A stretch of DNA of 64,000 nt from Vibrio azureus (GTDB lineage: Bacteria > Pseudomonadota > Gammaproteobacteria > Enterobacterales > Vibrionaceae). A program made the translations under genes and the position numbers. Location of the stretch: positions 372,001 through 436,000 of the forward strand of contig NZ_CP018616.1 of assembly GCF_002849855.1 (NCBI RefSeq). The letters run 5' to 3'. Position 1 is the stretch's first letter. Each line of letters starts with the position of its first letter. This document shows, piece after piece, positions 57,063-57,505 of the stretch. Under the pieces are notes generated by a model. It saw only the letters and a list, made by a program, of their open reading frames with translations, was not told the DNA's origin and did not search any database.

Positions 57063-57505
57063 GGAGCTGACTGGGTAGTCGCTGCTTTGTTGATGTCCTT
57101 CGGGAGACTGACGTTGAGGTCCTTTTAGGAGACTGACGTTGACGTCCTTCGGGAGACTGACAAAGGGGAGGAAAGTCCGGGCTTCATAGAGCAAGGTGCC
57201 AGGTAACGCCTGGGGGGCGCAAGCCTACGACAAGTGCAGCAGAGAGAAGACCGCCGATGGCCCCTATTTTCGAATAGTGGTGCACAGGTAAGGGTGAAAG
57301 GGTGCGGTAAGAGCGCACCGGGCGGCTAGTAATAGTTCGCAGCAGGGTAAACTCCACCTGAAGCAAGACCAAATAGGCCTCCACATTGCGTTGCTCGCGT
57401 AAGGAGGCGGGTAGGTTGCTCGAGCCAGTGAGTGATTGCTGGCCTAGACGAATGGCTACCGCCGCGCAAGCGGAACAGAACCCGGCTTATGTGTCGGCTC
57501 CTCCA
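57063..57505 (+). ncRNA. rnpB: RNase P RNA (catalytic RNA of tRNA 5' processing) with expanded P3
   Basis: Class A RNase P RNA, about 443 nt against 377 in E. coli. P1 forms between GGAGCTGAC (57063-57071) and GTCGGCTCC (57493-57501). Conserved cores are present: GAGGAAAGTCCGGGC (57169-57183), GGGTGAAAGGGTGCGGTAAG, AAACTCCACC, and AGAACCCGGCTTAT near the end. Between the P3 closing strands CTTT (57085-57088) and AAAG (57162-57165) are three tandem hairpin units instead of one. All catalytic elements look intact, so the RNA should be active. A terminator follows directly. Confidence 0.97.
57089..57161 (+). repeat. Three tandem 24-25 nt repeats in P3 of RNase P RNA
   Basis: Units at 57089-57112, 57113-57137 and 57138-57161 each begin GTTGA and end GGAGACTGAC. 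Units one and three differ by one base; the middle one replaces the TTCG loop with a TTTTA variant that still pairs (TCCT with AGGA). Each can fold as its own hairpin. Confidence 0.92.

Follow-up and report, generated by a model that had tools for sequence, protein, structure and literature searches.

In E. coli and other class A RNase P RNAs of bacteria, the P3 helix is typically one short stem-loop. A more elaborate P3 is the cruciform of alpha-proteobacterial RNase P RNAs, for which we know of no tandem-repeat origin. Enlargement of RNase P RNA by tandem repeats was reportedly described by Vioque in 1997 for the rnpB genes of heterocyst-forming cyanobacteria, which carry STRR repeats. STRRs are short and lie scattered through the genome. 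An enlarged P3 arm is also present in eukaryotic RNase P and RNase MRP, where it binds protein (PMC4919922, PMC2858038), and the accessible portions of these two papers mention no repeat origin for it, unlike the P3 of Vibrio.

In Vibrio azureus we found an RNase P RNA whose P3 departs from the short stem-loop typical of class A and comprises three tandem units within 81 nt. A search of open-access papers turned up no account of repeats in the P3 of a Vibrio RNase P RNA; that RNase P RNA can grow by repeats is known from cyanobacteria. The DNA analysed, called the window below, is a stretch of 64,000 nucleotides of the V. azureus genome. The features of the locus are as follows.

55997-56860, upstream neighbour of rnpB, presumably rsmI (name recognised from the translation)
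57050..57055, + strand, rnpB promoter, likely -10 box (TACAAT), identified by eye
57063..57505, + strand, rnpB, class A RNase P RNA (RF00010, 308.2 bits, model positions 1-367 of 367)
57085..57165, + strand, expanded P3 helix of 81 nt (Rfam alignment; exact span of covariance model R1 at 103.3 bits, a score that is not independent, this P3 being among the 33 rows used to build R1)
57085-57088 and 57162-57165, + strand, CTTT and AAAG bordering the array
57085..57092, + strand, basal P3 stem, 5' strand, pairing with 57158-57165 (end of unit 3 plus AAAG) in the alignment
57089..57112, + strand, unit 1, 24 nt, loop UUCG
57109..57116, + strand, middle helix, strand 1 (end of unit 1 and start of unit 2), pairing with 57134-57141 (columns 25-32 with 52-59)
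57113..57137, + strand, unit 2, 25 nt, loop UUUUA, variable across species, tip in the rod model
57134..57141, + strand, middle helix, strand 2 (end of unit 2 and start of unit 3), from the alignment pairing
57138..57161, + strand, unit 3, 24 nt, loop UUCG
57158..57165, + strand, basal P3 stem, 3' strand, from the alignment pairing
57512..57545, + strand, likely intrinsic terminator, ACCCATCA...TGATGGGT followed by a T run, read by eye from the sequence
57682-58632, downstream neighbour of rnpB, presumably rsmH (name recognised from the translation)

The RNA matched the class A family model from end to end and, with 308.2 bits against a gathering score of 100, still lies above the family threshold despite its P3 variant. 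The search of the whole genome gave this one RF00010 match, that is, a single rnpB. The basal P3 stem is kept, and in the Rfam alignment the array appears in P3 as a 67-nt stretch outside the consensus that is treated as an insert. A sequence-only reading of this DNA had proposed three adjacent units of 24-25 nt between CTTT and AAAG in an otherwise normal RNA, and this much was borne out. Tandem Repeats Finder placed 3.0 copies of period 24 at 57089-57161 (score 109, top of six rows in the window); units 1 and 3 are one base apart (96% identity), unit 2 carries the changed loop TTTTA, and the extra length of about 49 nt holds when measured against a 32-nt one-unit P3. Like the STRRs, these are tandem repeats that enlarge an RNase P RNA. 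The Vibrio unit differs in being P3's own hairpin (24-25 nt), and model R1, which represents whole three-unit arrays, matched the window genome once at E ≤ 1.

Some further features were observed beside the array. Compared with the Rfam model, 15 nt are inserted in a different arm of rnpB at about 57262-57276 (region 57250-57290), and rnpB match lengths in Vibrio fall into classes about 12 nt apart that are independent of P3 (near 381/393 and 430/442). A second tandem repeat of period 24, with two copies and 78% matches, lies at 15564-15610 of the window. The mraZ gene, which precedes rsmH in E. coli, is absent between rnpB and rsmH (57505-57682), and a Pfam search for MraZ in the whole genome gave no match (7 of 14 control genomes were positive).

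The array is not private to the window genome. P3 was read in 223 of 224 fetched Vibrionaceae rnpB genes, 193 of them from Vibrio (the window included) and 30 from other genera; the one left out (L194) is truncated. One unit was present in 143 P3s, three in 78 (77 from Vibrio and one from another genus) and four in two (L158 and L171), and a two-unit P3 was found in none of the 223. These counts include one gene (L102) that was entered as three-unit, with a pattern count of two and a count by eye of three, and two genes (L002 and L223) entered as one-unit. Three-unit P3s measure 80-83 nt, compared with 32-60 nt in one-unit relatives. Copy number thus varies across Vibrio between one, three and four, and a single P3 length shared by all Vibrio, which had been named as an alternative, does not agree with 143 one-unit P3s among the 223 of the family.

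The covariance model R1, built from 33 distinct three-unit P3s, matched 173 of 227 Vibrio genomes at E ≤ 1 and left 54 without a match. Matches had three-unit length (80-83 nt) in 95 genomes and four-unit length (105-106 nt) in two, so that what had been taken for a peculiarity of one genome is carried by 97 of the 227. Among the matches listed for these genomes none scored between 92.1 and 34.9 bits, a gap in which a two-unit P3 would be expected to score. The RF00010 search of the Vibrio genomes gave no match in G080 and G124, and G080 matched R1 at a contig edge.

A DNA-pattern scan of contigs of up to about 2.5 Mb, which may omit records near the window's genome and is not a census, named as carriers, among others, V. 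splendidus, V. lentus, V. crassostreae, V. chagasii, V. fortis, V. tubiashii, V. bivalvicida, V. europaeus, V. diabolicus, V. owensii, V. rotiferianus, V. jasicida and V. harveyi NBRC 15634. Two pattern matches lacking the Vibrio genus name are rnpB (one "Vibrionaceae bacterium" and one "Vibrionales bacterium"), and two Vibrio matches flagged as lacking the core motif (L233 and L239) read as rnpB by eye from their P3 context. Pattern matches in Xenorhabdus, Cupriavidus and several MAGs had no adjacent rnpB core motif. When 345 genomes of the order (Vibrio included) were searched with R1, 27 matched at E ≤ 0.01; 19 of the matches were full-length, all in Vibrio, and the remaining eight were short (32-59 nt; six in Vibrio, one in another member of the Vibrionaceae, G205, and one in another family, G334). 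The 321 genomes of the class yielded only the window's own match and one weak match in G749. Both G334 and G749 were rejected as carriers, as neither stretch holds an Rfam RNase P RNA or an rnpB core motif, and they look like chance matches.

One genome outside Vibrio was found to carry the array (G245, rnpB gene L224); of the 52 genomes searched in its genus, this alone gave a long match to rnpB (430 nt; 378-390 nt in the others). In L224 the loop of unit 2 is GCAA, of the GNRA type, units 2 and 3 resemble the L043 type, and rnpB is 22 of 335 sites away from the closest relative sampled.

Short tandem repeats are open to misassembly, and a false or collapsed repeat would be a trivial explanation of the array. 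We consider it practically negligible: an array of 73 nt is, as a matter of general knowledge, shorter than common short reads, its units are not identical, and the three-unit form occurs in many assemblies, some of them in 2-3 contigs, as do one-unit forms. Chance is excluded as well, since numerous independent assemblies have the array at this same position.

Pairing was assessed on an alignment of the 33 distinct three-unit P3s, whose rows are phylogenetically related. Two structures were counted on this alignment, one in which every unit forms a separate hairpin and a nested one that joins the start of unit 1 to the end of unit 3. Nested pairing held in 99.8% of 825 cells, with changes on both sides at six pairs (18 cells), compared with 98.4% of cells for separate hairpins, where four pairs (seven cells) had changed on both sides. 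Pairing is maintained, as the sequence-only reading had supposed; the three-hairpin branch that it envisaged is contradicted. In the separate-hairpin structure 11 cells fail, pairing in the helix of columns 5-7/26-28 goes down to 88.9%, and pairs 5-28 and 6-27 are broken in 4 and 7 of the 33 rows, respectively. The rows that break these self-pairs of unit 1 become compensated changes when its start is paired with the end of unit 3: pair 5-79 is GC in 27 rows, AU in 4 and GU in 2, pair 6-78 is UA in 23, CG in 7 and UG in 3, and both hold in 33 of 33 rows. Covariation shows pairing between the beginning of unit 1 and the end of unit 3. Because 5-79 and 6-78 are compensated without a failure, the basal stem keeps the seven pairs of its one-unit relatives and encloses the rest of P3; its columns 1-7 with 77-83 are paired in 100% of cells, with changes on both sides at four pairs, and 32 of 33 rows also form an eighth pair, 8-76. 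The four AU rows at 5-79 are L140 (L317 on the quick tree of flanking genes described below), L122, L154 (L309 and L319 on that tree) and L043 (with its twin L045). One 22-row clade of the quick tree contains both L317 and L043/L045, in separate starred subgroups; L309/L319 belong to another clade.

Three independent hairpins on a short CTTT/AAAG stem would suit the self-complementarity of every unit, and 98.4% of cells do pair in this way. We rejected this fold on covariation, as the start of unit 1 and the end of unit 3 change together where 5-28 and 6-27 fail; with a pair probability of 0.0 and the energy given below, it is very improbable. A kink-turn reading of the UGAU...CUGA strands was dropped by reasoning, since the change from U-A to C-G at columns 6-78 fits plain pairing.

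Two folds remain to be weighed above the basal stem. One is a rod, in which the 3' half of unit 1 would pair with the 5' half of unit 3 and unit 2 would form the tip. The other is a cruciform, in which the basal stem would lead into a four-way junction whose arms would be an extended unit 2 hairpin and the UUCG hairpins formed locally by units 1 and 3. The inner rod pairs hardly vary, so that covariation does not separate the two. The only double changes in the middle helix (29-55 and 30-54) lie inside unit 2 and suit separate hairpins as well as nested pairing. The cruciform fits the same inter-unit covariation, the nested count being exactly that structure, and the C(UUCG)G tetraloop is kept in units 1 and 3. 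RNAalifold selects the rod on the alignment. Under the Turner model the window array has energies of -25.8 kcal/mol as a rod, -7.9 as a cruciform (about 18 kcal/mol worse) and +1.0 as three hairpins (-3.1 to +11.4 kcal/mol over the 33 rows), multiloop energies being unreliable and the identical values from two further parameter sets amounting to no check. The probability of the local hairpin pairs was 0.0 in three three-unit arrays tested. Single rod and middle-helix pairs reach only 0.35-0.44 in the window ensemble (rod pairs 0.35-0.40) because rods in different registers compete, and the single-sequence z-score is only -1.34.

The loops bear on the same choice. UUCG is found in 77 of 78 three-unit genes in unit 1 and likewise in unit 3, compared with fourteen loop types in unit 2; counted in distinct haplotypes, it is present in 52 of 53 for units 1 and 3 each and in 16 of 53 for unit 2. 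Among 37 distinct haplotypes of short one-unit Vibrio P3s, the terminal loop is UUCG in 22, and test values on these counts are only indicative since the haplotypes are related to each other. Unit 2 drifts in its loop as one-unit P3s do and so behaves as a terminal loop would, which is not true of units 1 and 3. The constancy of their loops is unlike that of free loops, and we regard the cruciform as unlikely. Units 1, 2 and 3 occur in 8, 24 and 7 distinct forms, and their sixth base marks them across the 78 three-unit genes (T in 77 for unit 1, G or A in 77 for unit 2, C or A in 78 for unit 3). On energies and loop conservation, a single long, imperfect rod tipped by unit 2 is the favoured, though unproven, fold. 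Our main reading, with a probability of roughly 0.66, is that this is a normal class A RNA whose P3 has been triplicated and folds as such a rod.

Copy number has switched repeatedly within the family. A quick tree of rnpB without P3 (223 rows) requires 20 changes between one and three or more units, at least 7 of them forced by starred branches. A more careful, unrooted tree was built from the flanking rsmI and rsmH, two linked genes, for 104 of 151 rows, a sample enriched for mixed clades; 29 rows from other genera, four named long-branch rows and rows without a usable copy of either gene were excluded, and L224, on a very long branch, is the sole row from another genus. This tree requires 15 changes (13-15 over bootstraps), at least 11 of which are forced by well-supported branches. 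As it is unrooted, the direction of change is not provable. One-unit and three-unit genes can be nearly identical outside P3, differing at 2 of 332 sites (L121 and L038), 3 of 347 (L081 and L152) and 3 of 333 (L093 and L122). Some one-unit P3s share outer-stem letters with multi-unit ones (L109 and L175, CAAGG; L081 and L152), which speaks for change in place or for exchange of whole alleles. The common unit-marking sixth base suggests either one ancient origin followed by repeated loss or spread by recombination. The switch between three units and one would take a single step, most simply a deletion between units 1 and 3, which are nearly identical; alternatively, species could exchange rnpB alleles.

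The rnpB of G127 (L081, L294 on the quick tree of the flanking genes) is 3 of 347 sites away from that of G029 (L152), and its flanking genes group elsewhere with moderate support, hinting at exchange of rnpB between species. The window pairs with G043 on this quick tree (SH-aLRT 100, computed without bootstrap). In G043 (L179, L333 on the tree) unit 2 equals unit 1, which suggests gene conversion between units, and R1 matched this genome at three places at E ≤ 1.

We propose that P3 was enlarged by tandem triplication of its own hairpin unit. Each unit is self-complementary (x x'), making the array (xx')3 itself one inverted repeat, and this holds for such tandem arrays whatever the copy number. 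At odd copy numbers the middle of the array would be a normal hairpin with its own terminal loop; at even numbers it would be a loop-less junction between units, and a two-unit P3 would probably be poor and short-lived. The two-unit state may be missing, with one and three seen, because only odd numbers keep a terminal loop. As the four-unit P3s show (L158 and L171), even numbers are not forbidden and can occur, at least transiently.

In E. coli RNase P, P2-P3 forms one of the three coaxial sets, and RnpA binds at its meeting point with P1-P4-P5 (PMC9433436). Judged from this cryo-EM arrangement, the rod would prolong the P2-P3 coaxial stack outward. Because of the geometry of the stack, a longer P3 should protrude and be tolerated, with RNase P working as usual; the arm is probably mostly neutral in catalysis, with selection keeping it folded. 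Alternatively, and compatibly with the rod, selection might keep the arm for binding a protein, another RNA or RnpA itself. The arm occurs in many species and is well paired, units 1 and 3 vary less than unit 2, and the eukaryotic P3 is a protein-binding arm (PMC4919922, PMC2858038). Repeated switching between one and three units among relatives suggests that the arm is dispensable, and we find a binding role unlikely. Speculatively, P3 might be a quantised arm that changes in steps of two since only odd numbers give a capped rod, folding filtering which repeat alleles survive and the long arm serving a lineage-specific function such as partner binding. We put this forward quite tentatively, as doubtful but worth considering.

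For users of rnpB, the length of the gene is unstable as a marker within Vibrio and calls for caution. For the RNA itself, the array shows that a peripheral arm can lengthen by self-copying. The Vibrio genes provide a natural series of one, three and four copies of one hairpin in an essential ribozyme, with at least 11 forced switches and spanning species such as V. harveyi and V. splendidus. This series opens a testable general question, namely whether the fold of a structural RNA decides which copy numbers of a tandem repeat persist.
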